A stretch of 64,000 nucleotides of DNA, from assembly GCA_938007965.1 (NCBI GenBank), contig CALLMH010000053.1, forward strand, positions 1-64,000, read 5' to 3'. Below are positions 4,460 to 50,685 of this stretch, piece by piece. Source of the DNA: an uncultured Saprospiraceae bacterium. GTDB taxonomy: Bacteria; Bacteroidota; Bacteroidia; Chitinophagales; Saprospiraceae. Numbering within the stretch: position 1 is the stretch's first letter; each line of letters begins with the position of its first letter. The translations under genes were made by a program, and so were the position numbers. The notes under the pieces are model-generated. The model made no database searches, had not been told where the DNA came from, and saw only the letters and a program-made list of their open reading frames with translations.

Positions 4460-7400
4460 CTATTTCAGTTTTATCATTTTATATTGAGCACTTTGTGTAT
4501 CAGTACTTACTTCATAGAAAAACACACCAGAACCAGTCACTTTTTCATTGTCCAGTTGGATTACGTTCTTTCCTGCATTAAGCATTTGCGCTTCTTGGTA
4601 CATTATTCTACCTGTCACATCAAATACCGTGACCGTTACCGTTTTTGCAGTAGGCATAGTTACCTCTACTTGCGTGTATGCTAGCCATGGATTTGGAGTA
4701 TTCTGTGCAACAGTAAATAATATCTGCTCTTGATCTCCTTCTCGCTTCACTATCTCTAATTCAGTGATTTCAAGGTTTTCACTTACATATACTTCTGGTG
4801 ATAATCCGAAACCCTTTTCGACAGAAGAAAGGTTACATGATACACACCCGAATTCTATGGTGAATAGTTCTTGATTAGCTTCTACGGAGATAGATGTAGC
4901 ATTCGCGATGGATACATTGTACACTCCTTCTGACACCTCATTATATGCAATGCTATTATCATCGAAAATATCAGATCTAATTTCACTTATGTCATTACCA
5001 TCTGTATTGATGGTAAACTGAAGTCCTGCAATATCAATATCTTCTACTACAGAGTATAGTATAGCACCATTTTCTATATCAGACACTAGAGTTGTAGTGT
5101 TAGATGATCTAGTAGCTACTGTACCATTTTCCGTAAGATTTACGGTTGCATTACCATTGATATCACCGATCTTTACCCCTATGAAATCTATGTACATATT
5201 CGAGGCTAATTGTTGGATATTATAGTATTCAGGTATAGAGTTAGACCATGGATCAGTCGCATCATCAAATGTGTGATCTGCATCGATTGTTCTCCAACTT
5301 AGATTGTTAGGGAATTCGATATTGATTCCAAGTATCACTTTTCGCAGTGCTAATAAATCAGAACTATTTACATTTTCATTATTATTGATATCAGCGGCAA
5401 TATATTGATAAGGCGAATCAAATTCAGCCAGTCCCAATACATGTCGTTGGATCATAATAAGGTCTAATGTCGTAACACCATTCGTCACATCATCATTTTT
5501 ATATGTACCTACGGTATAATCACCGCCTGATGGCATCATCGGGAATGCATAAGAACCATCAGCATCACTTAATATAGGATCCGTATTACTACCATGTAAT
5601 TTCATTCTGAAGTTTGGTATTCCCTCTCCACTGACAGTAGTTACATCTCCTTGGATTTCAAAGATTGTGTTACCGCATACATTTGTACTATCTCTCACTT
5701 CTATTTGAATCTTACAATCATTATTAACTCCATCTGCTAGAGGATTCAAATCGAATGGAATTGTATCCATTCCCACTACCTGTGAGATGAATAAGGTAGG
5801 AACCACTGGTTCGCCTACGTCGTCACAATCAACCATTACTATGGTGTCCACAAAGTTATCCTCACTCAAGGAAGCTATTATACTACCCTGATCTGCGTCA
5901 CAATTTCCAGATACGATCAATGCATCATATATAGATACATCGAGCAAACCAGTAATGGTGTCAAGATATACTATAATCTTAGCACAGGATACATTGATTG
6001 CTGAGGTATCTACGACCATCAAATCAAATGAATCAATGGTGATGTTATCACATCCATCAGTAGCGGTAACGGTCACAGTATAATCACCTGAAGCCAATGT
6101 ATCTATGGTATTCACATCAAACTCACCGCTATCGTCATAAGCAAATGTGATATCTAGATCTTCATCGTCTGTACAATTGTCTGTAGCTGTGATCAATCCA
6201 CTAAAGTCAACAGAAGCCGAGCAAGTAGATGGATTAGCTACAAAAGTAGTATCCGCTAAGTTTAAGAATATAGGCGCTTCACTGTCATTTAGAATGATCT
6301 GCTGTAAGAAACCAAAAGTGGCATCCTGGCAGATTGCTTCTATGACGTATGTTCTGTTGATCGTATCCGGACATCCCTCACTTATAGACACATCCTCGAA
6401 TGAGACTGCAAATTGCCCACAATCAACGAGGTCAGTAAGATCCGCTACAGTAATCACATCGATATCAGGTGTACCATCTTCTGTACATCCATCGATTGTG
6501 ATACTTGCTGGTACAATACCATCTACATCTGCTTGAGTAAGAGGGTCTGTAGGTCCATTTATCACGATCATTTGCTCACAAGTATCACTCATACTACTAA
6601 GTGGATCCTCAGCTATTATAGTCCTAATCACTGTACCATAGTTGCAATCATTTACCGCAGAAGAATCTACTGTAGATGATATGATGATAAATGACTGACA
6701 ATTACCACCAACATCAGAATTAGTAGGTGACGGAATGGTTTCTAAATATTCGGCAATGCTATTGAACTCAGCGTCAAAGTCAGAACATGAAATTTCAAAA
6801 TCACTACAAGTCAATACTGGAGGTATAGTATCCAATACTATGATAGAATCTATCCCACATGGCTGCCCATCAGCAAATATTGTGACTACTAATGGGTTTT
6901 CCATTACATCATTACATGATGCAAAAGTCCTACTCAATGTGATTTCTGGAAGATCTCCACATACTCCACCTGTAACATCTACTATCGTGTTAGGATCTAA
7001 GGTAAACTCTCCATCAATATCTAAGTATGCAGTATCAATATTGAACATACAGTTAATCTCCTCATTAACGATTATATTGAATACTATTGGACATTCTGAG
7101 CTGTTACCCGCTGCGTCAGAAACTGTCGCTGTCACATTGAACATCCCTTCATCATCACATGTGAATACCGCTGGATCGAATGTTACAGATTCTACTCCAC
7201 AGTTATCCGTGAATGGTGTGGTCAATAAATCCAAAGTAATCGAATCCGTATCTCCTGGCTCAATAGTATAATCAATGATTCCTTGATCTACACATACTGG
7301 ATCAACATTATCAACAACTGTGATCGTATACGTACATGTCGACGAATTACCATTAGTATCAGTCACTGTCCAATTGATAGTATACGGTCCTCCTACTGGG

Positions 7401-10400
7401 AAGATAGCCCCATCAAGTGACCCTTCATTATTGTAATCATTGAGCATAGTACTCGGCGTGCATGGCTCTGATACCTCTGGATCAAATCCTGTTCCTGAGA
7501 CTGTGAATTGACAATCATCATCGACACCATCAGCAGAAGAATCTAAAGTCTGATCTCCGACACAATCAATTACAGGTGCTATATTATCTACTACTGTAAT
7601 ACTTGCAGTACTACACTCTACTCCGTTGAGAGAGATAGTGAGTAGTATCGGATTACTTGCTATATCTGAGCAAGAAAACGATGTAATATCTATCGATGGT
7701 ACATATGTGATTCCACATCCACCGCCTATGATATCTACCACAACATCTGGATCTATAGTCGCAGTACCGTCTGCTCCGAGGATTACCTCATCAATATTCA
7801 GTGCACAACTGACTTCAACATCTGCCATTACATTAAACTGAATATCACAATCAATAGAGTTATTATTTACATCTGTAACCGTGGCCACTACATCTACAAT
7901 ACCTTCTTGATCACAACTTAATTCTGAAGGATTAAATGTTACACTTGCCACCCCACATGCATCAGTATACTGCGTAGTAAGTAAGTCCGTAGTAATCACT
8001 AATCCATCTGTACCTACTGTGAGATCGATAGTTCCTTGATCTACACACTCTGGAGCTGTATTATCTATAACTATTACATCTACAGTACATTCTGAAGAAT
8101 TATTAGACATGTCAGTCACAGTCCATGTGATGGTATATGGTCCCCCTACTGGGAATACAGCATCCTCTAAAGTAGTATTACTCGGTGCATCTGCATAATT
8201 ATGAATTATTGTCAATCCATCTACTCCACAATTGTCACTTATGTTTATTGGATCTAGTTCTGAACCGTCAACTGTATATTGACAATCGTCTTCACCATCG
8301 ATATTATCAACTACCGTAGCATCGGCAGCACATGTAAATGATGGATCAATACTATCTACCACTGTAATCACAACCGTACAAGTAGATTCATTTCCTTCAT
8401 CATCTACAGCTGTAAATACAACTGGAGTAGATCCTAATGGGAAGGTAGCCCCTGCCAATGTCGTATTATTCGGTGCAGGTCCATAGTTATGTGTTATAGA
8501 TACTACATTTCCACATTCATCCATTGTCGAAGGATCCAATGCATCATTCGCAATTGTGTGTTGACAATCTGCATTTCCATCAGCCATATCTTCGAAGGAT
8601 GTATTTTGAGCACAAGTGATCGCTGGTCCTTCATTATCCAATACAGTAATTTGTACTGTACAAGTTGCTTGATTTCCACTTCCATCTGTGACTGTAAACA
8701 CAACAGATGTAGTCTCTAATGGGAATGTAGCCCCATCAAGAGAAGTCGTACTCGGTGCTGGTGCATAATTATGCTCGATAGTTACATCTACACAGTTGTC
8801 AGCAAATAACGGATCCAAGCTGGTTCCACTATGTGTATATTCACACCCTGTGAATCCAGAAGTATTGACTGTAAGATCTTGCGCACAGGTTATAGAAGGT
8901 GCAATCTCATCTTTTACCAATACGGTCAACTGGCATGTCTCTATCATTACTCCATTGGATATAGTCCAATTTACCACTGTAGTTCCAAGTGGGAATTCAG
9001 CACCAAATAGTGTCGTATTATTTAATGATGGTGTGTAGTCATGAGTTATCGTCAATGGTCCACAATCTGCAATTTCTTGCACTACATTAAATGTATTGTC
9101 AGATACCACGAATGAACATGCCTGAGAAATAGTAACCATCGTATCCGCTAAAATAGAGACACAATCTTTGACATCCATACAGATATCTGTATCATTATTA
9201 TCCTGAACTGTAATTGTATCTATACATGAAGATACATTTCCATTAGCATCTATTGCATATATTGTTACAGATTGGAACCCTAGATCATTACAATCAAAGC
9301 ACATCTCTGATACAATCTCTGTAGCTGAAAAACTCAAATCAAAGTCCACATCACACTGGTGGAAAGTACCAGATGGTACAATCAATGAGTTTACATCTAC
9401 ACAAGCTGCTTCAGTATCAGGCTCTCCATCACCATCTAGATCCCATGGCTCGAGCGCTATTGCAGTACTTTGACATAAGATATTAGGTGGTACATTATTT
9501 ATTATATTTATAGGGAATGACGTTGTCGTTCTTACATTACAAGGATTCAAGAATGTAACTACGGCTGTATGATTCCCCATTGGTAGCATCTGAGAGAAAG
9601 TAGTACTCGCTCCTACTCCGCCTATTGAGATTTCATATTCGTTCGTCGTATCAAAATCAGAATTAAGATCTATCTGAATCACTGATTGTAGATTATTAGG
9701 CAGGCAATCACCTGATGTGGCTGTAAATGTAACCATAGCACTATCACAAGTAGTAGCTACAATAGGATCATCTAATCCTGTCATCACTATATCGTCTGGT
9801 GCCTTAGTATTGATTACATTTATGACTTGTACATCTGATCTTTCTAGTGGAGCTCCATTGATATCCGTTTGACACCAATCTATTACTGTCCATGTTCTCA
9901 CTATCTTGAAGCATACACCTTCTGCATCTTCGAATAAAGAGAATATCTCATCATGTGGGCTAGCGCTTACCATCTCACAAGTAGAAATAGAATTAAACTG
10001 AGGCACATCAAATCCAGCTGGCAAATTAGCTGGGTCAGTGATACTGTCTACGTTACATGTATTGATCGTAAGTTCTATATCCTCTGGGAATACTACACTG
10101 TCGAAATCAAATGGATTATTATTCACCACAGTAATAGTCTGAGAAGTACTCGCAGTACCGTCACTATCCGTTGCTGTAAATGTTCTAGTAATAGTTCCTA
10201 TTCCACAATCGTTAATATTAACTGAAGAAGTAGTGACTGTATCTACATTACAAGCATCCGTAAATGCAAATTCGCCAAATTGAGACAACGGTAAGAAGTC
10301 ATCTCCACACTCTATCGTAATGTCTGCTGGACCAGATACTTCTGGAGCATGCTTATCTTGTACGATCACATTGGCCATACAAGTATTCATCAATCCTCCA

Positions 10401-13400
10401 TTATCTGTTACTTTTAGTTCTACGACTACTGGTGCGCCTAGATCCGCACAAGTGAATATCGCTCTATCAGAGAATGGTCCACCTTCATCCATCCTACGGA
10501 TTTCGATAGATGCTACTCCACATGCGTCATAACTTCCATCATCTATATTTAGCGCATATGCATACCCTACTCCTACAGAGTTGAGGCCTACGATCGTATT
10601 TTGATCACAAATCGCCACAGGTGCTATATTATCAGTAACTGTGACCTGTATAGTACATGTCGATGATAATCCCGCGCCATCGGTAGCGGTATATACTACG
10701 TCATATGGTGTTTCTGAAAACGGGAAAGTCACTACACGAGAGTCTCCTTCTCTTATCAAAGCTCCAAAAGGAGGCTTTATAGTGTAAGTCAATCCATCTG
10801 GTGAACAAGCATCAGAAATCTGCGGAGCGGGTAAATTTACCGTACCAGAACAATCGCCTGTTACCGCGGATACGTTGATATTATTAGGGCAGACGATTAT
10901 CGGCGCCTCAGTATCTCTTATTTCTATGAGTTGTTCTACTGTTCTAGTCTCTGTACCACTACAATGCCACTCCCATGCTGTCCATGTTCTAGTGATTTTG
11001 ATTACACCGTTGATCGTTCTTTTTTCATCTTCGAACGTAAGTGCAGTATTACATAACTGACCAAAGTCAGGGTACGCTACCTCATTATTGTAAGTAGGGA
11101 CTCCTGTGATATCTAGATCAGCAACTCCATCCATATCTAAATCATATTCATTACAGTTAAGCGCTGTATTGTTCATCATTAAGAAAGTATCAGGGAATAC
11201 TATATCGTCTAGATCTACCCTCTCGATAAACATACGCATATCACATACATCTGACACATTGCCTTGTGCATCTATAGCTCTATATTGTCTATCTATCACA
11301 GCTACAAAATTATCATCACACGTAAGCTTTGTCAAAGAATCTTTCAACAATTGAACTTCTGCGATAACGCCGCAATTATCCTCCGCAAATGGGCCAGGAT
11401 ATTCGTCTATTTTATTACAAGAAACGGTAACATCTTGGCAGACAACAGTAGGTTGAATTTTATCTTCAACGAAAATATCTGCCCAACAAGAGTTTCCAGA
11501 ACATGCATCAACAATCTTAGCAGTAACAGTCATTCCTATATGTGCAGCAGTTAAAGTGGCATTTGGGATGACCTCTCCTGATTCTGTAGTTAACATCACA
11601 TTATAAGCTTGTCCTGTACTGATAGGACTTGTTAGTATTATATTAGGGGTGATAGTAACCTCGCAGTTTCCATCAAGTGAAAAATTAATATCTCCGATAC
11701 ACGACATTGAGCCAGAACTAGATCCTATAGATGCTACATAAGATCCAGGTGCAACACACCCATCATCAGGAACAACATCAAGACCATAGTTTGCATTAAT
11801 CGCGGCTCCGTCCCAGTTGATCTCAACACAGGAAGCATTCGCATTTGTAGGTGTGATTATCGCTCCAGCTGCATCTGTTGACCACATATAAGTGATATCC
11901 GCATCCGCATTGATTACGCAATACTCTTCTGTACCTCCATTACATAGGGCTAGATTACCCGTTATGAATATATCTGGATATGTCTCAGCTGGTATATTGA
12001 ATGATTCTACCTCGTCGTCATCGCTTCTCAATACTAAGAAACCAGCATCTCCATCTTCTCTTATTACAGTGATCGTGTACATACTCATACCATCTTCTGG
12101 CATATTAACCATCTCGGTAAGTAGTACAGATTCGCCTGTAGCTTGCGGAATTAATGCTCCATCTCCTGGTTCTGGGCTAGATTCATCAAAGTAGTTATTT
12201 TGATCTGCTACGTACCATTCATCACCAGATGGACCGGTAACTTTAAATACATCTTGATACTGTCCATTATTTGAATCTGTAGCATTAGCAAGACATTCTG
12301 AACTCTCTAGTTGTGAGCTGATCACTACGACCCTAGCTGGATCATGATCATCCTCGTCGATATCTCTAGTTGATCCTATATCATTGTCAGTATCAGAATC
12401 TGGAACTCCTCCATTATCATTATTATTTATCTCATCTGGTGTCGAATCGATATCTTTTGATCCGATAGGATTATCATTTGCATCTAAGGCATTTGCTATC
12501 TCAGCATAATTTACTAGAGATCGTGGAGTAGCATCTCCATCAACAACTAACTTTATAGTTGTTTTCACAGCATTTCCTTGTGTCAAAGGCGCATCCAACA
12601 CCAATGTTCTTTTTACAATTCCACTTCCAGCATTCGTCCAATCTGCATCTACAAGAGACATATACTCTGGAATGTAATCTACAATCTTAATTTGATATAC
12701 AGGTAGAGTACCTTGATTTAGAATTTCGATGTCAAAAGTAACAACATCGTCAGTTTTTACCCTTTTTTGATCGGTCGTGATCATCAATGCTAGATCAAGA
12801 TACTGTGTTTTCACAACTACAGGATCATGATCATCTTCATCGGCATTACCGTGATCATTTATTACATTGTCAGATGAAGTGTAGATTTCTCCGCCTGTAT
12901 CATTATCATTTTCACCGTCGGGTGTACTATCGAAATCGAATGAATCAGGATTACCAACTGGGCTAGACTCCATGATCTCGATAAAACTAATTAATTCGTC
13001 AAGTGTATTCTCAGCGGATACATTAAAGTATATACAGTAATCTCTCGACTCTCCTGCTGCCAATATATTTTCGTCTACTAGAGTGATTTGATTATTCTCT
13101 TCAGTCCAGTCAGGATTAAGATCAGCATTGAAGATCAATTCTTTTGGACTGTAGTTTACTAGTTTTATATAGTCAGCATCAGTATTTCCTTGGTTGAATA
13201 ATTCTACATCCAATTTTACGACATCACCACCGCAGTAGTATTTATCATCAGAAACTTTGACTCTTGCAGCAAGGTCAAAAATTGCTGGTGTAGCTGGATC
13301 ATGATCATCTTCATCAATTTCTCCTGTATCATTTATTTGATCATCGGTAGATGTGAATGGCTCTCCTCCGTTGTCATTAGTAGAAATAGCATCTGGTGAG

Positions 13401-15907
13401 CTATCTACATCAAGGGCTTCATCTCCAGAGAGATCAAACGCTTCACTAATTTCAGCAACATTGGTATAGTCAGCAGCTTGGGAACTGTTAACTAAGAGTT
13501 TAAGTGTTTTTGAGATATTGGTTCCTGGGAGAATTTTCTCAACTATTTTATAGCTTAATGTACCATTACTAAGTTCCCATCCTGGATTAGAGGCTGGATC
13601 AAACGTATAGCCATTAGGCATATAATCTGTGATCGTAACTGCCGAAGCTGATACCCCACCTTGATTGAACACTGTAATCATGAAAGTCAACTCTTGACCT
13701 ACGATCGCAAATCTATTTCCAATGATTTCCTTTTGCAATGCTAGATCAAATCCCGAAGGCGTTCCTAGTGCTATATCAAAGCTATGATTCGTTTCTGTCG
13801 TATTTACCTCTATGAATGAAGATGATAAACAAGATGCTTCATCATACTGAGCATCACAATCGATCATATCATCAGCATTACTTCCTGCATCTGCAGTACA
13901 AATAGTATACTCTTCATTTCCAAAAGTATATAATCCAGTTTCTTCATCGTACAGTGAATTATCTAATTCTACATAGTAGGTAGTATTAGGATATACTCCA
14001 TCTAGATTTCCGTCTAGATCACTATCTACATTGGTATCATTGAAACCATAAACACCGTTTTCATCAGTAGTAGTTGTACCTACTAGGTCACAATCGTCAT
14101 TATATAGGTTTAATGTGATGTTACCAATTCCGTCTTCACCAGGATCTTGCAATCCGTTTCCATTGGCATCGTTCCATACATAATTGCCTATTTCTATTGT
14201 TTTGACATTACACTTTGCAATGATATCACCGAATCCTGTTGCTTTTCCAAATACGGGATAGATCGCATGAGAGTACAATTCTATAGCGCCCGTCTTAGAT
14301 CCATCGATCGTACTGTATCTATGTAATCCACCTGAGTAAGAATTAGTTAGTGGATCATATACTGCTACTACTACCTCGTCCGAACCAGGTAATACATATA
14401 CTGATCCTAAGGCTGTTTCATTATGATAGGTAGGATTTGTTGGCCAATTATCAAAACCGAAGAATTCTCCGCCTCCTGGACCTTCTCCATTTCCTATACC
14501 TGTACCGTCTCGGCCAGCGACTGTACCATTATCCTCCAACTCCCAAGATTGAGTATCCGGATTGAATGCTACCATAAGAATATCAGGAAACTGTTGATCT
14601 AGTCTATTCGTAGATGCTTTACAGTATCTATGTCCTATTCTATCCGTAAAAGATATAATCATCTCTCCCGTAGAAGTGAAATCTATATCTGTAAACCAAT
14701 GACTTACCGCTAGAGAAGCTGGTTTCTCATCTTGCCAGAATCCCTTCAAATAATTGGTTCTGAATATTTCCTTCGTCTCTCCAGTTTGTGGATTAAGCGT
14801 CATGACGACACCAAGACTATTATCTTTATTTTCTGAAACAGAACCCGTTACAGTACCACCGACATACAATAGATCCTCATGCCACTCTAAGGCGAATATC
14901 TTGTATTCCTCATCCGTATCTATATTAATAGGTCTCGGCATTTCAAAAACTTCTGTTTTTGCCAAACTTGGGTCATTAATATCAATAGCCACTACCAAGT
15001 TCTCATCTAATACAGGTGTATATAGAGTCTTGGAATCTGGTGATATTACTAGATTTCCTAATCCAACTCTACCCACCTGATTACCATAAGAACAGTCATC
15101 CACATCCTGAGTAACTGTCAGACCTTGTAACGATTGAGGTATGATATTACTTACATCTGCAAATAGCGTAGTCTTCTTTTCTCCTTCCAGTTCTGTTTTT
15201 AATATAGCATAAGGACCATATTTGAGTCCCGCATATTGCTTTACAAAAGCTGATGTATATAGGTTTTGATTTATAACATCTTGAGCTATACCCCACACAG
15301 AGCCAGTCTCACTAGCTGTAGCCAGTACTGATACTCCGGAAGAAACTGTAAAATCATGCTCTGTAGATATTATAGTAGCAAAATCAGGATGTTCTTCAAT
15401 CTCGCCCTGTACAAAACACGTCAATATAATGTCAGGATTACTACCACAAGAAGAAACATCTCTTGTAAGTCCATAATTTACTCTACATGCTGGTGCATTG
15501 ATGAATTGTACAGAAGATCTATTATCATCTCCCTGAAATCCAGAATTATAACCATCACCACTTTGAAATTCTAACCGATACTGTGTATCATTTTCCAAAT
15601 TTGAAATAGAATAGTTACCATCGGCATCAGATATTACTGAAGCGACAGAATTTCCAATTGCATCATATACAGTTACGAGAACATTACTCAATCCTGTTTC
15701 AGTACTTCTAAAAGTACCGTCATTGATTGCGTCTTCAAATACTGTCCCACTTATGGTATTGGACTCTGGAGTACACTGACTCCAAGATTGCACATTAGCA
15801 GCCATAATCAAGACCCATATAAATATGGCCGATCGGCTTAGCTTTAAAATTGCACGAGATCGTGCGAACGTAAGTTTTCTCATTTTGACCCTAGTTAAAC
15901 TTAGCAA
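4460..15907 (-). CDS. giant T9SS-exported multidomain surface protein (SdrD/B, DUF11, HYR-like, dockerin-like)
   Basis: 3815 residues. The N-terminus is a basic signal peptide; the start may be Met9 at 15883. Order: SdrD/B-like domain (about 47-133); propeller-like region (about 150-560); second SdrD/B domain (about 568-700, [19 protein letters not shown]); three DUF11 modules beginning near residues 717, 874 and 1037, each followed by a DEDDHDPA motif; PKD/Ig-like region; HYR-like modules with paired Cys (about 1480-3300); CarboxypepD_reg-like domain (about 3410-3470); dockerin-like pair ([20 protein letters not shown]; about 3475-3535); cohesin-like segment (about 3600-3710); T9SS type A sorting domain (about 3730-3815, ending YKMIKLK). 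Likely role: a very large adhesin or matrix protein. An exact 6-bp dyad (GCACGA/TCGTGC, 15852-15865) lies in the signal-peptide codons. No frameshift is seen. Confidence 0.9.
6825..8056 (-). repeat. duplicated supra-module within giant surface protein
   Basis: A block of about 155 codons starting CVDQGTIDL (about 8056-7590) recurs as CVDQGIIDY (about 7300-6825). They share LLTT, a C-G-V then SVTF segment, NID and the GGxCG region. One HYR-like module lies between them. The offset is about 755 bases, so duplication occurred at a scale above single modules. Confidence 0.7.
8150..9060 (-). repeat. tandem HYR-like modules within giant surface protein
   Basis: Four successive modules carry variants of [19 protein letters not shown], with the H codons near 9042, 8774, 8492 and 8206. 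The period is about 270-286 bases (90-95 residues). Each ends in a CTVxITVxD strand. The copies are diverged at the DNA level, which argues for old duplications. Confidence 0.75.
12335..13765 (-). repeat. three DUF11 modules with DEDDHDP spacers
   Basis: Three modules of about 160 residues each open with a DLAL/DLAA strand and an FNQGG/FNQGN/LNQGT turn. Each closes with an acidic spacer containing DEDDHDP, near 13310, 12825 and 12345. The Asp-rich spacers suggest calcium binding by analogy with similar linkers. Confidence 0.75.
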
Positions 15908-44964: not shown

Positions 44965-47901
44965 TCAGTACCGCTCATCCTTCACATATGGTAGTCGCTC
45001 CATATTCCACACCTCTATACTTGGAAAGCCGAAATCTTCTACTACTTTTCCTCTAATCAGATAACACCCCTTCCCAGTGAATGGAGATCTGACCAACGAT
45101 GGCGGAAAATGTACCGTATCAAAGAATTTCCCTTTGTTATCCAACCATGTACCAAAATTCATATGTCGTTTGTTGACTGTGGTTACATGCTTGCGCGCTA
45201 CATAGTAACCCAATATGGAGACCGACTGTCCCATATATGATTTCAACTGATCACTCGATATAGTAGGACCGACTTCCGCTGCGATCAGATCAAATGGCGA
45301 ACATAGTGGAAAGCCCAATAACTCCATCTCATCAAATGCTTGTTCGTGCTTTCCCTCTTCTAGTATTGGAAGATCATAATTCTCCGTCTCTACATCAAAA
45401 AATGAAGCATACTGTGCTTGCTTGACCGCAGGATTGTGCACCGCATTCTTCTCCCACATGAGTTCATACTTATTCATACCCGTAAATCGAAATGCTGATA
45501 TCCGCACCAATATTTCCAACTGTTCTTTGGATATATCTACCCTATTTACGAAGTCTTTTAAGTCATGGTAGTCTCCATTTCGCAGTCTTTCCTTTACGAT
45601 TCTATTGGCTACTTTTTTTTCTAGATCTGCGATATGAATGAATCCGATATATATGGTTGCACCATAGATATTCGTGAGGTTGGTACTATTATTCACACAC
45701 GGTGGTTCTATCTTGGCTCCACACATCCTCGCTTCATGTACGTAAGTCTCCGTACGGTAGAATCCTCCAAAATTATTGATCACCGCCGTCATAAATTCTA
45801 ATGGATAATACGTTTTCAAATACAAACTCTGAAATGACTCCACCGCGAAACTCGCCGAATGCGCCTTACAAAACGAATAGCCACTGAAACTCTCTATCTG
45901 TCGCCACACCTCCATAGATAGGTCATCAGGGTAGCCTCGTTCTTTACAGTTTTTGAAGTACTTCATTCTCAATCTATCGAATGTGTCAGAGTTCTTACGC
46001 TTCCCCGTCATGATCCGACGAAGTACATCCGACTCATCAAGATCCAAACCTGAGAAATGATGGACAATCTTCATCACGTCCTCCTGATAGACCATCACTC
46101 CGTATGTCTCCCCCAAGTGCTCCTCGAATACCGGATGTATATAAGTGAAACTATCCGGATTATGAGATCGACTGATGTACTCTCGCATCATCCCTGACTT
46201 AGCCACTCCCGGCCGTATGATCGAACTCGCCGCTACGAGGTGTACATAGTTATCACACTTCAGCTTGGTCAGCAGTCCTCGCATGGCAGGTGATTCTATA
46301 TAAAAACAACCAATACAGTGCCCAGATTTCAGCTGTGCTTTCACATTTTGATCGTTTTTTATTTGCTCTACTTTATGTATATCGATGGCACGCCCTTGGT
46401 TTCGCTCTACCAGTTTTACGGCATCTTTGATATGTCCTAGTCCCCGCTGACTCAGTACGTCATATTTATGATATCCTAGATCTTCGGCCCCATACATATC
46501 GAAGTGTGTGATGGGAAATCCCTTGGGCATCATCTGCAATGCTGTATGATAGTTAAGCGGTCTCTCACTGATCAATATCCCGCCTGCATGGATCGATAGA
46601 TAATTAGGAAATCCCTCAATCAACTTACCGAATCTAAATATGTGCTTACCGAAGTGATGATGCCGATCCGTCGCGTTCGGATGATCTACAATGAGATCAA
46701 TATCCGCCTTCGGCAATCCGAGCACCTTACCCAGCTCCCTGATGATGGACTTCCCCTTGAATGTATTGTACGTCGCCAACAGTGCCGTGTGCTCCTTACC
46801 ATATCTCTTAAATACATAATCAGTCACATCATCGCGCTCATCCCAACTGAAGTCTATATCAAAGTCAGGTGGTGACATCCGATGCGGATTGATGAATCGC
46901 TCAAAATATAGATCTAATTCCATCGGATCTACATCTGTGATATTGAGATTGAATGCTACGATAGAGTTCGCCCCACTCCCCCGCCCTACATGATGATACC
47001 CAACCGAATGTGCGTACCGTATGATATCCCATGTAATCAAAAAATAAGAACTGAAGCCCATCTTATCTATCATCACGAGTTCCTTCGCTGTTCTCTGTTT
47101 TGCTTTTCGATTTTCCTTACCGAAGCGGGCTATACATCCATTAAATGCTAATTTTTGTAGTAAGTCATAATCATCTTTTGCGCTCCCTGTGAAGGTAACC
47201 CTATTATGATTGTAGTCATTTTCCATATCAATCTTACACTCGGCTAAGATCATCCGTGTATTTTCTATGATCTGTGGATATTGCTGAAATGCTTGTACTA
47301 AGACTTGCTCATCGTGGATCGTCTCTATTGATTTTGCATGCATCTTAGGATCCAACTTACTGATTACGATATTGAGATCTATACATCGTAAGAGCTTGTG
47401 CGTACGGAATCCTTCTTTGTCCAAAAAAGTGATCGGACTGAATACCACCAGCTTTTCCTGATGATTTTTCAAATACGAAGAATATAAATGATTCACTTCC
47501 CCAGGACGCACGCCTATGTATTCATGCGCCGCCAGATGATTGATTCCTTTCGGTAACTTTCGGTAGACCGTATAGGCATGCCTCCAATCTGGAGCAATGG
47601 CAGGCAATGTCTCCTTCTCCATGGAGTAATGTGTGAGGTGGGCACAGAGTTCTCGCCATCCTTCCTCATTCTTAGCGATACCGAGATAGAGAAAGTCATT
47701 GTCGGACCTGTATTCTATGCCTAAGATCGGCTTTATCTTATGCTCCTTACATGCTCTTATAAATTGGAATGCACAAGATGTATTATTGATGTCTGTAAGC
47801 ACGAGTTGGGTAATTCCACATGCAGCAGCGTGATTGACTAGCTGATCAGGTGATAGCGTGCCGTACTTGAGTGAATAGTATGTATGCGCGTTTAGATACA
47901 G
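44965..47901 (-). CDS. dnaE: DNA polymerase III alpha-type subunit, short form (DnaE2/ImuC-like class possible)
   Basis: 978 residues if read from the CTG at 47901. The first ordinary start is a GTG at 47802 (LTDINNT), but the frame is open 33 codons further to a CTG followed by YLNAHTYYSLKYG, the expected PHP N-terminus, with GAAGAG as a possible ribosome site; no ATG, GTG or TTG lies between there and the stop at 47961. PHP domain (about 1-210); polymerase palm with PPDFDIDFSWDE holding the catalytic Asp pair; fingers (GMMREYISRSHNPDSF, YGVMVYQEDVMKI, RIMTGKRK); HhH region; OB domain (about 880-970). It is shorter than replicative DnaE, like the second DnaE of Bacteroidota tied to translesion synthesis, but no dinB or imuB gene is adjacent. 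Three 15-bp operators lie upstream. Confidence 0.88.
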   Translation of the reverse strand: MYLNAHTYYSLKYGTLSPDQLVNHAAACGITQLVLTDINNTSCAFQFIRACKEHKIKPILGIEYRSDNDFLYLGIAKNEEGWRELCAHLTHYSMEKETLPAIAPDWRHAYTVYRKLPKGINHLAAHEYIGVRPGEVNHLYSSYLKNHQEKLVVFSPITFLDKEGFRTHKLLRCIDLNIVISKLDPKMHAKSIETIHDEQVLVQAFQQYPQIIENTRMILAECKIDMENDYNHNRVTFTGSAKDDYDLLQKLAFNGCIARFGKENRKAKQRTAKELVMIDKMGFSSYFLITWDIIRYAHSVGYHHVGRGSGANSIVAFNLNITDVDPMELDLYFERFINPHRMSPPDFDIDFSWDERDDVTDYVFKRYGKEHTALLATYNTFKGKSIIRELGKVLGLPKADIDLIVDHPNATDRHHHFGKHIFRFGKLIEGFPNYLSIHAGGILISERPLNYHTALQMMPKGFPITHFDMYGAEDLGYHKYDVLSQRGLGHIKDAVKLVERNQGRAIDIHKVEQIKNDQNVKAQLKSGHCIGCFYIESPAMRGLLTKLKCDNYVHLVAASSIIRPGVAKSGMMREYISRSHNPDSFTYIHPVFEEHLGETYGVMVYQEDVMKIVHHFSGLDLDESDVLRRIMTGKRKNSDTFDRLRMKYFKNCKERGYPDDLSMEVWRQIESFSGYSFCKAHSASFAVESFQSLYLKTYYPLEFMTAVINNFGGFYRTETYVHEARMCGAKIEPPCVNNSTNLTNIYGATIYIGFIHIADLEKKVANRIVKERLRNGDYHDLKDFVNRVDISKEQLEILVRISAFRFTGMNKYELMWEKNAVHNPAVKQAQYASFFDVETENYDLPILEEGKHEQAFDEMELLGFPLCSPFDLIAAEVGPTISSDQLKSYMGQSVSILGYYVARKHVTTVNKRHMNFGTWLDNKGKFFDTVHFPPSLVRSPFTGKGCYLIRGKVVEDFGFPSIEVWNMERLPYVKDERY

Positions 47902-47934
47902 TTGCTCTTCGTTGTTGAGTTTCCGATAAATTAA

Positions 47935-47949
47935 GTCGCAATATATGAC
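47935..47949. promoter_or_regulatory. putative operator, copy 1
   Basis: GTCGCAATATATGAC, 12 of 15 identical to the copy at 47976; GTC/GAC ends are symmetric. Its inner edge is 34 bases from the CTG at 47901. Confidence 0.5.
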
Positions 47950-47975
47950 TATATTTGATTATTAATTAATTTTAT

Positions 47976-47990
47976 GTCGGATAATATGAC
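47976..47990. promoter_or_regulatory. putative operator, copy 2
   Basis: GTCGGATAATATGAC, the best copy; 11 of 15 bases agree with its own reverse complement. It starts 41 bases from copy 1 (about four helical turns). Confidence 0.5.
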
Positions 47991-48119
47991 ATTATTTATT
48001 TGTAGAAGATCTCTTGACACAACAGTGTATATGGAGGAATATTACTCTGAATTCTCGATGATTTAGCTGCGTGCTATAGGTTTTAGAGCGATACGTGATT
48101 GAGAAAACCCGTTGTCAAT

Positions 48120-48134
48120 ATCGTATAATCTGAC
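48120..48134. promoter_or_regulatory. putative operator, copy 3
   Basis: ATCGTATAATCTGAC followed by ATT as in copy 2; TCGnATAATnTGACATT matches copy 2 at 15 of 17 bases. It lies 144 bases from copy 2. Confidence 0.45.
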
Positions 48135-48250
48135 ATTTTTCAGTTGGAAGAGGATTTGTTGATATGGTAGCATTTACGAAGTACCGTTACTATTAGTACT
48201 CTATGCTTTAGCTTTGAGCTGCCGGTGGGACGACTCGATATTGATTATCA

Positions 48251-48970
48251 TTAAGTAATCAAATTTCCTTTTTCATCCCACTCGGCTTGTGTATTCCTCG
48301 TATCGTGATTTACGTATTTCCCTATCATGTTTTCATCGTATGATAGTCCATGCTTTGCGAGTACATCATCTGGCACACCGTCCCATAGATTGGCTCTATT
48401 TCCTACATATCCTATATCATCGACTCCCATCCTGGAGGTGTAGTACCCAGTCAAAACAAGATTTCTAAATCGGTCAAAGAATTTCCTACCTGCATCATAC
48501 TGTAATGTGGACTTCGTACTAGGATAAGCAATATCGTCTAAGATTTGCTTTTGTTGTGTATCCGTGCAATTTTCGAAGATATTATTGAATCTATTATTAC
48601 TTTCTCCATTAAGCCACATCAGTCCTCCTTGTATCGGAAGCTGATGATAGGGTAAGTCTTTTACAATAAAATCAATAAATGCTGGCACTTCCGCATCAGT
48701 AGCACTTCCAGCTGTACTAGTGGCTGGCAGTATCAGATCGCACAATATCGCAATCAATGATAAATCCGCATCTGAAAAAAACTGACCTACGGCCTTGATT
48801 CTAGCATCATGCTCTTGCTCGGTGGCTGTTCTCCCATACAGTCCATCGGTCGCATCCACCTCAGGCATACTAGATTGCCCATCATTTTTACATCCTGTCG
48901 CAGCTACAGAGAGTCCAGTAGCTCCAATTCCTCCAATCAGTAGCGTCTTCAAACTATCTCTTCTATCCAT
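48251..48970 (-). CDS. gluconate 2-dehydrogenase subunit 3-like protein, Tat-exported
   Basis: 239 residues. The N-terminus MDRRDSLKTLLIGG carries an RR pair followed by a hydrophobic stretch and Cys (AATGC, about residue 27), so a Tat lipoprotein signal. The body matches the gluconate 2-dehydrogenase subunit 3 family (LSLIAILCDLILPATSTAGSA, VPAFIDFIVKDLP, FFDRFRNLVLTGYYTSRMG). In known complexes this small subunit is needed for folding and Tat export of the flavin subunit. The start overlaps the stop of the GMC gene by 1 base (TAATG), coupling their translation, which fits a 1:1 complex. Confidence 0.92.
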   Translation of the reverse strand: MDRRDSLKTLLIGGIGATGLSVAATGCKNDGQSSMPEVDATDGLYGRTATEQEHDARIKAVGQFFSDADLSLIAILCDLILPATSTAGSATDAEVPAFIDFIVKDLPYHQLPIQGGLMWLNGESNNRFNNIFENCTDTQQKQILDDIAYPSTKSTLQYDAGRKFFDRFRNLVLTGYYTSRMGVDDIGYVGNRANLWDGVPDDVLAKHGLSYDENMIGKYVNHDTRNTQAEWDEKGNLIT

Positions 48971-50685
48971 TATATGTTCTGTTTTTTGAGTTGATCAACT
49001 ATATATTCCGAGGCACGCATACTGAGTGCCAGAATCGTCCATGTACAATTTTTGTCCGCTTGCGATACAAATGGACCAGCATCAACGACGAATACATTCT
49101 TGGCATCGTGCAACTGTTGGTATTTATTCGTTACCGAAGTCCGAGGATCATTTCCCATACGAGTAGTCCCTACTTCATGAATGATCTGCCCTGGAGCCAA
49201 CAGCCCATAATCTTTATCTTTACCTGGTTTCTCCCCTATCACTTTGCCACCCATATTATGAATGATTTCTTCAAAGGTATCGACCATATGTTTCGCTTGA
49301 TTTCGTTCTTGATCAGACCATTTATAATCAAATCTCAAAGTTGGAATTCCGAATCGATCTACCTGATCTGGATCAATCTCACACCGATTATCATACATGG
49401 CGATAGATTCTCCTCTGCCAGCTATCCCGATAGTAGAACCGTAGAATCGCTTTACATCTTCTCTCAGTTTATCCCCATATCCTCCGACTTGTTTACCGAT
49501 ATATTCATTCATCTGAGTAGCTTGTCCTCCGAAGCCATAGGCAGGCATCCCTAGACCTCCCCACATCTCTATATGGTATCCTCTAGCGAAATCGAGCTTC
49601 TTATTGTCTCCCCACCAAGGGCTATATACGTGCAGTGCTCCAGTCCCATCTTCGTTATACATCTTTCGATCCATCATAGCGGGAATGAAGCCTGACAATC
49701 CAGACCCTGTAGAATCATGCAAATATCTACCTACATGGTCACTACTATTCCCTAAGCCATTAGGATGTTGTTTGCTCTTAGAATTGAGCAATATCCTCGC
49801 CGAACTACATGCGGAAGCTCCCAGAACGACCACCTTGGCCTTCATTTGATATTCCATCATATCTTCTTTATTGATATAAGAAACTCCAGTAGCTTTACCC
49901 TCTGCGTTCGTGGTTACATTCTTGACCATACATCCAGTGAAGAGATCGACCTGTCCATTCCTCATCGCGGGAAATATCAAACAAGATCCCGAAGAAAAAT
50001 CTGCGTATGCATTGCAAGACCTATTGCATTGCCCACAGTAGAAACAGACTCCTCGTTCTGCATTAATCCGTTTTGTCAATATAGAAATCCTCGCGGGGAT
50101 GACCGGGATCCCGGTTTTGCGGGCTCCTTTGGTATAGTATAGCTCATGCAACCTAGGCTTGGGTGGAGGTAAGAAGAATCCGTCAGGATCATTTGGCAAC
50201 CCTTCATTGGTTCCCGCTATTCCTATCATCTTATCTAACCGATCATAGAAAGGCTTGATTTCCTCATAGGAGATAGGCCAGTTTTCACCCAAACCATCTA
50301 TATCTTTATGTTTGAAATCTTTAGGACCGAATCTAAGAGATATTCTCCCCCAATGGTTGGTTCTACCTCCTAGCATTCGTGATCTCCACCATCTGAAATC
50401 AGTACCCTCTTTTGTAGAATACGGTTCTCCCTCTACATCCCAGTCACCCCATGACATATCGAAATCGCCGAATGCTCGGTTGGTACTAGCACCTCTTCGC
50501 GGAGACTCCCACGGCCACTTCATCTGTGTCATCGTCTTAGGATCTTTGGGATCGAAATAGCCTCCCGCTTCTAATATAGCTACCTTCAATCCATTATTGG
50601 CTAGGATATTAGCTGCCATGCCTCCTCCTGCACCAGATCCTACGATGATTGCATCGTATTGTTTAGTATTCTCCTTTATTTGCAT
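48970..50685 (-). CDS. GMC family FAD oxidoreductase with Cys cluster
   Basis: 571 residues. FAD-binding GSGAGGGMAANIL near residues 16-29, the GMC substrate domain, and the C-terminal HEVGTTRMGNDP and DAGPFVSQADKNCTWTILALSM regions with the active site. A cluster CFYCGQCNRSCNA (about residues 211-223) has four closely spaced Cys, as in FAD-dependent glucose and sorbitol dehydrogenases, where Cys in this place bind a 3Fe-4S cluster carrying electrons to a cytochrome. It has no signal peptide; export is likely by hitchhiking on the Tat signal of the partner encoded next. Substrate: an alcohol or sugar, not determinable. Confidence 0.92.
   Translation of the reverse strand: MQIKENTKQYDAIIVGSGAGGGMAANILANNGLKVAILEAGGYFDPKDPKTMTQMKWPWESPRRGASTNRAFGDFDMSWGDWDVEGEPYSTKEGTDFRWWRSRMLGGRTNHWGRISLRFGPKDFKHKDIDGLGENWPISYEEIKPFYDRLDKMIGIAGTNEGLPNDPDGFFLPPPKPRLHELYYTKGARKTGIPVIPARISILTKRINAERGVCFYCGQCNRSCNAYADFSSGSCLIFPAMRNGQVDLFTGCMVKNVTTNAEGKATGVSYINKEDMMEYQMKAKVVVLGASACSSARILLNSKSKQHPNGLGNSSDHVGRYLHDSTGSGLSGFIPAMMDRKMYNEDGTGALHVYSPWWGDNKKLDFARGYHIEMWGGLGMPAYGFGGQATQMNEYIGKQVGGYGDKLREDVKRFYGSTIGIAGRGESIAMYDNRCEIDPDQVDRFGIPTLRFDYKWSDQERNQAKHMVDTFEEIIHNMGGKVIGEKPGKDKDYGLLAPGQIIHEVGTTRMGNDPRTSVTNKYQQLHDAKNVFVVDAGPFVSQADKNCTWTILALSMRASEYIVDQLKKQNI

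Follow-up and report, generated by a model that had tools for sequence, protein, structure and literature searches.

Probable SOS-repressor operators of a new class upstream of a short dnaE gene in an uncultured Saprospiraceae bacterium

Three 15-bp palindromes in front of a short dnaE gene from an uncultured Saprospiraceae bacterium are probably operators of this organism's SOS repressor, a non-canonical LexA of the Bacteroidetes type; judging from sequence comparison, we give this reading a probability of about 0.88. The motif core is GTCG-N7-CGAC (15 bp), a recognition sequence that is very probably used across Saprospiraceae, and the cognate regulator is almost certainly a predicted protein with HTH_3 and S24-peptidase domains, S24-B, encoded on contig C21 of the same genome. 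The first-pass annotation of this DNA had suggested operators for an SOS-type, S24-family repressor, a suggestion now supported by the presence of the motif before dinB, splB, a TIGR03915-like repair gene and the repressor's own gene.

Probable operators in the dnaE control region

The window (the whole 64-kb stretch of DNA that was analysed) and the host genome (G000) contain the following features.

44965..47904, minus strand: short dnaE, DNA polymerase III alpha-like, ~978 aa plus start, with PHP, polymerase, finger and HHH domains (Pfam)
47905..48250, minus strand: intergenic dnaE control region with operators, between the dnaE N-terminus and the upstream gene end at 48251
47935..47949, minus strand: operator 1, proximal, GTCATATATTGCGAC in the dnaE direction, exact strict-motif match
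47976..47990, minus strand: operator 2, GTCATATTATCCGAC in the dnaE direction, exact strict-motif match, 41 bp from operator 1
48120..48134, minus strand: operator 3, distal, probable on the basis of its score, GTCAGATTATACGAT in the dnaE direction
G000:C21:30650-31414, minus strand, outside the window: S24-B repressor gene, 254 aa, HTH_3 plus S24 peptidase

The gene had been described as the short form of dnaE that is often linked to translesion synthesis, a polymerase of mutagenic type. It is the second dnaE of the genome; the other, longer one (at G000:C30) encodes 1177 aa. Its start codon seems to be CTG in the host (window 47902-47904) and TTG in three congeners, these being the codons that precede the conserved YLNAHTYYSLKYG (YLNAHTYY); no in-frame ATG, GTG or TTG is available upstream of the CTG. 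A more distant relative has ATG at this start. Just upstream of the control region, genes for a gluconate 2-dehydrogenase subunit 3 and a GMC oxidoreductase (48251-50685) likely form one operon, and elsewhere in the window the minus strand of 4460-15907 holds one uninterrupted open frame of 3815 aa.

All three 15-mers reported upstream of dnaE are present at exactly the coordinates given for them. Under a matrix trained solely on repressor-gene promoters from other genera, operator 2 ranks first in the 64-kb window (PWM score 17.6), operator 3 third (13.0) and operator 1 fifth (12.0). Operator 3 is the least secure of the three sites: it scores well, but no counterpart was found in the dnaE promoters of congeners. 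No clear promoter box, and none of the TAnnTTTG type, was located in the dnaE promoter of the window.

The consensus originally offered for these sites, GTCGnATAATATGAC, proved not to be their best description, the true signal being palindromic, GTCR-N7-YGAC, around an A/T core. With up to two mismatches, GTCGnATAATATGAC matched the 4.19-Mb host genome 45 times against 44 for a reversed control, and with up to three it matched the window eight times against 8.4 expected by chance; showing no enrichment over the reversed control, it was dropped as a genome-scan motif for the symmetric palindrome. The strict form of the latter, GTCRWWTWWWNCGAC, has just three matches in 4.19 Mb: operators 1 and 2, and GTCGAATAAACCGAC at C26:3254, 80 bp upstream of a DNA polymerase IV gene (dinB). 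A looser symmetric form, GTCRNWWWWWNYGAC, occurs in nine places in the host genome, the six not at dnaE or dinB falling within open reading frames. This near-confinement of the strict form to dnaE and dinB speaks against a random distribution across the genome.

Conservation and further targets

Orthologs of dnaE were gathered from 40 relatives. Operators 1 and 2 are kept in two congeners (L042 and L043; dnaE 90–91% identical) with their 41-bp spacing unchanged, while much of the intergenic sequence around the pair has diverged; one of these congeners carries an extra tandem site 23 bp further. In a third congener (L044) and in other genera, dnaE is preceded by tandem sites that differ from these yet are just as good, among them GTCGTATATTGCGTC (the L044 counterpart of operator 1) with GTCGAATAAAACAAC in L044, GTCGGCTTATGCGGC with GTCGAATAAAACGAC in L048, and GTCGATTAATTCGTC in L045. 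Scoring sites are present at each of the eight close stand-alone orthologs of dnaE (≥64% identity), with best scores of 9.2–21.7 (seven of the eight at ≥11.7), compared with a best score of 9.3 and a median of 2.5 in a control set of 22 promoters of an unrelated S24 gene (S24-A). Absence of the motif before orthologous dnaE genes, which would have spoken against its relevance, is not seen among close orthologs; more distant dnaE genes have no site directly in front, and several of these sit close behind dinB.

That these are A/T-rich palindromes alike by chance and without a part in regulation, to which the lack of genome-wide enrichment of the literal consensus might point, is extremely improbable given how the refined motif is distributed, its conservation across species at fixed spacing, and the outcome of shuffling: the 347-bp intergenic region has three sites at score, and none of 2,000 dinucleotide shuffles had even two.

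The expectation that matches would also be found before dinB is borne out in the host genome and its relatives, with two sites in the dinB promoter of each of the genus's four species, 52 bp apart in three of them. The motif precedes splB (PA0069-family radical SAM) in the congeners G002 and G003 and in G005 and G020; no match was found at splB in the host genome. G002 also has it before a TIGR03915-like DNA-repair gene with a DUF4130 domain, the NCBIfam score of which (104.4) is just below the curated cut-off of 112.25. Matrix scoring covered the 64-kb window and selected promoters, and there may be further targets elsewhere in the genome.

The sequence TAnnTTTG is the Bacteroidota -7 element. 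In the host dinB promoter, such a box, TATCTTTG, lies 16 bp downstream of an operator centre, and a repressor bound to that operator would obstruct RNA polymerase. In the promoters of repressor genes, boxes of this kind are concentrated 14–18 and 25–26 bp downstream of the centre of the proximal operator.

The same check at recA came out negative: the host recA promoter has no site, and at a score of ≥12 sites were found in only two of 30 recA promoters from relatives, so recA was ruled out as a conserved target. As recA is the usual core SOS gene, this counts against an SOS reading.

The candidate repressor

The host genome encodes two S24-type regulators, S24-A (C18) and S24-B (C21). S24-B matches HTH_3 (PF01381, E = 1.1e-13) and, above cut-off, the S24 peptidase family (PF00717), and its residues A104-G105, S141 and K180 are invariant in 26 sequences. 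A search of 84,980 species, with one genome per species, recovered 80 loci with S24-B relatives, nearly all from Saprospiraceae, with Portibacter marinus, P. lacus and one Aureispira genome among them.

Matches before an S24-family repressor gene had been named as a further check, and S24-B provides them. Its host promoter contains GACGAAAATCACGAC (score 17.8), and GTCG-N7-CGAC occurs within one mismatch in 41 of 70 non-redundant repressor promoters, against a mean of 0.9 (maximum 4) in shuffles; outside the window's genus, 12 of 68 repressor promoters have no scoring site. We assign the operators to S24-B because the motif is found in the promoter of its own gene, in the host and in most Saprospiraceae, and because the gene lies back-to-back with dinB in many genomes; dinB is divergent and adjacent in many of the loci, and dnaE follows dinB in two.

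Refinement of a palindromic matrix over the repressor-gene promoters, seeded with the GTCG-N7-CGAC pattern, yielded 114 sites with a GTCG/CGAC core and an A/T centre. Gaps between neighbouring sites of this refined set were 23 bp in 32 cases, 22 bp in 12 and 41 bp in three, and this regular spacing of 22–23 and 41 bp suggests paired dimers on one helix face, from which we infer cooperativity between them.

In an AlphaFold model of a 90%-identical congener protein (mean pLDDT 69; ~88 in the N-domain and <50 in the linker), the nearest structures are lambda and 186 repressors and LexA; the N-domain is all helical and aligns with P22 c2 at 1.4 Å over 63 columns. The predicted recognition helix of the GTCG group is RTTLGDYERGKT, that is, R[TS]TLGDYERGKT-like.

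Promoters of S24-A carry no such sites in relatives (22 promoters), and it was rejected as the regulator; a loose site ~500 bp upstream of S24-A was likewise discarded, since it falls where a neighbouring gene begins. The sequence upstream of S24-A (L036:8400-8551, G000:C18) lacks GTCG sites and has palindromes of its own, TATGTATACATA and GTACATAT...ATATGTAC. In one congener (L080:1535-2545, G001:C159), the gene immediately upstream of dinB encodes a WYL-domain regulator, and two GTCG operators stand in the gap separating the two genes. The sites could in principle belong to another damage-response regulator, either such a WYL-domain activator, as this arrangement might hint, or S24-A, in which an S24 domain and Ala-Gly bond are likewise present, with the S24-B gene as just another target. 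We consider this unlikely: the WYL neighbour was seen in a single genome, the S24-A promoters of 22 genomes lack the sites and its upstream palindromes are of another type, while the palindromic form of the sites, autoregulation and a back-to-back dinB all fit S24-B, as does a recognition helix that is not the same in the GTCG group as in the CTAA group.

With S24-B as the repressor, dimers would bind GTCG-N7-CGAC, mostly as spaced pairs with 22, 23 or 41 bp between centres (about two or four helical turns), and would overlap or flank the promoter, holding down the expression of dnaE, of dinB and of the repressor gene itself. On DNA damage, RecA filaments would trigger cleavage of the repressor at A104-G105, the dimers would fall off and the error-prone polymerases would be made. 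Binding, repression, RecA-triggered cleavage and induction are here extrapolated from characterised members of the family (PMC8565304). Constitutive or growth-linked control without a link to DNA damage would fit the missing recA site in most genomes, but it is very unlikely, as the repressor retains its RecA-cleavage residues and the targets (dinB, dnaE, splB, TIGR03915 and autoregulation) resemble the SOS set reported for the family (PMC8565304).

Relation to known repressors and significance

In E. coli, classical LexA has a winged HTH (PF01726) and the operator CTGT-N8-ACAG. S24-B would share the role proposed here, that of repressing polymerase and repair genes until DNA damage triggers its self-cleavage, but its HTH is all-helical and of the CI type and its operator is unrelated; it has no match to PF01726, with HTH_3 in its place. 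It resembles lambda CI and P22 C2 in the fold of its DNA-binding domain and in the pairing of palindromes at a distance of about two helical turns; unlike theirs, its predicted targets are chromosomal SOS genes rather than phage promoters.

The closest likeness is to the Bacteroidetes non-canonical LexA proteins, for which two operator groups have been described, CTAA-N5-TTAG (13 bp) and GGA-N5-TCC (11 bp) (Sanchez-Osuna et al., 2021, PMC8565304). In common with these, S24-B has a CI-like HTH_3 and S24 peptidase with the Ala-Gly and Ser-Lys residues, the N-terminal penta-helical phage-repressor HTH (PF01381) by which the family is recognised, a gene that carries the regulon motif itself, and several sites per promoter at targets that include dinB, dnaE, splB and other repair genes. 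It differs in its 15-bp GTCG-N7-CGAC operator, in place of a 13- or 11-bp motif, and in that recA is mostly not a target. In the same 70 repressor promoters and with up to one mismatch, neither published operator was enriched (CTAA-N5-TTAG, 8 vs 7.9 expected; GGA-N5-TCC, 17 vs 26 expected). With these counts the two published operator groups are ruled out, though not membership of the protein family, because diverged operators have been described within it (PMC8565304), among them TTAC-N5-GTAA, shown by EMSA for a regulator of Elizabethkingia anophelis (PMC8565304). That case is likewise one of an altered palindrome in the same repressor family, but it concerns one species, with another sequence and spacer, where GTCG-N7-CGAC spans most of a family.

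Two Cyclobacteriaceae relatives (L224 and L225), recovered in the 84,980-species search, are recognisable homologues with perfect CTAA-N5-TTAG sites, and the recognition helix in these two CTAA-bearing relatives is KPPVIGAYEEGRA, unlike the RTTLGDYERGKT of the GTCG group. In the G005 lineage (L132, L172, L174, L176; L046, L230), the dnaE and splB operators resemble GACA-N7-TGTC and the repressor's recognition helix is RTTLSAYERGFV; a further operator switch is possible there.

The first-pass annotation had remarked that the motif was not a familiar one for LexA, and GTCG-N7-CGAC indeed departs from the SOS motifs described in the phylum to date. The main text of PMC8565304 does not mention Saprospiraceae, and we found no Saprospiraceae LexA motif in the open-access papers that were searched. 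On the sequences compared here, the motif is a new class of operator within a repressor family already known, and the recognition helix has changed with it. More tentatively, and at rather less than even odds, the Saprospiraceae repressor may be a specificity class of its own that is still moving, using GTCG-N7-CGAC in most genera with lambda-like cooperative dimer pairs 22–23 or 41 bp apart, and shifting to GACA-N7-TGTC in G005 as the helix changes from GDYERGKT to SAYERGFV. If that is true, the family would offer a natural series of an SOS repressor changing its operator.

For Saprospiraceae, which in this comparison are known mainly from environmental genomes, these results provide a candidate for the SOS operator and for the core regulon, and they link a stand-alone short dnaE to probable SOS control. 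A repressor family with two main known operator classes would thereby gain another, well-sampled one, with a visible change in the recognition helix.
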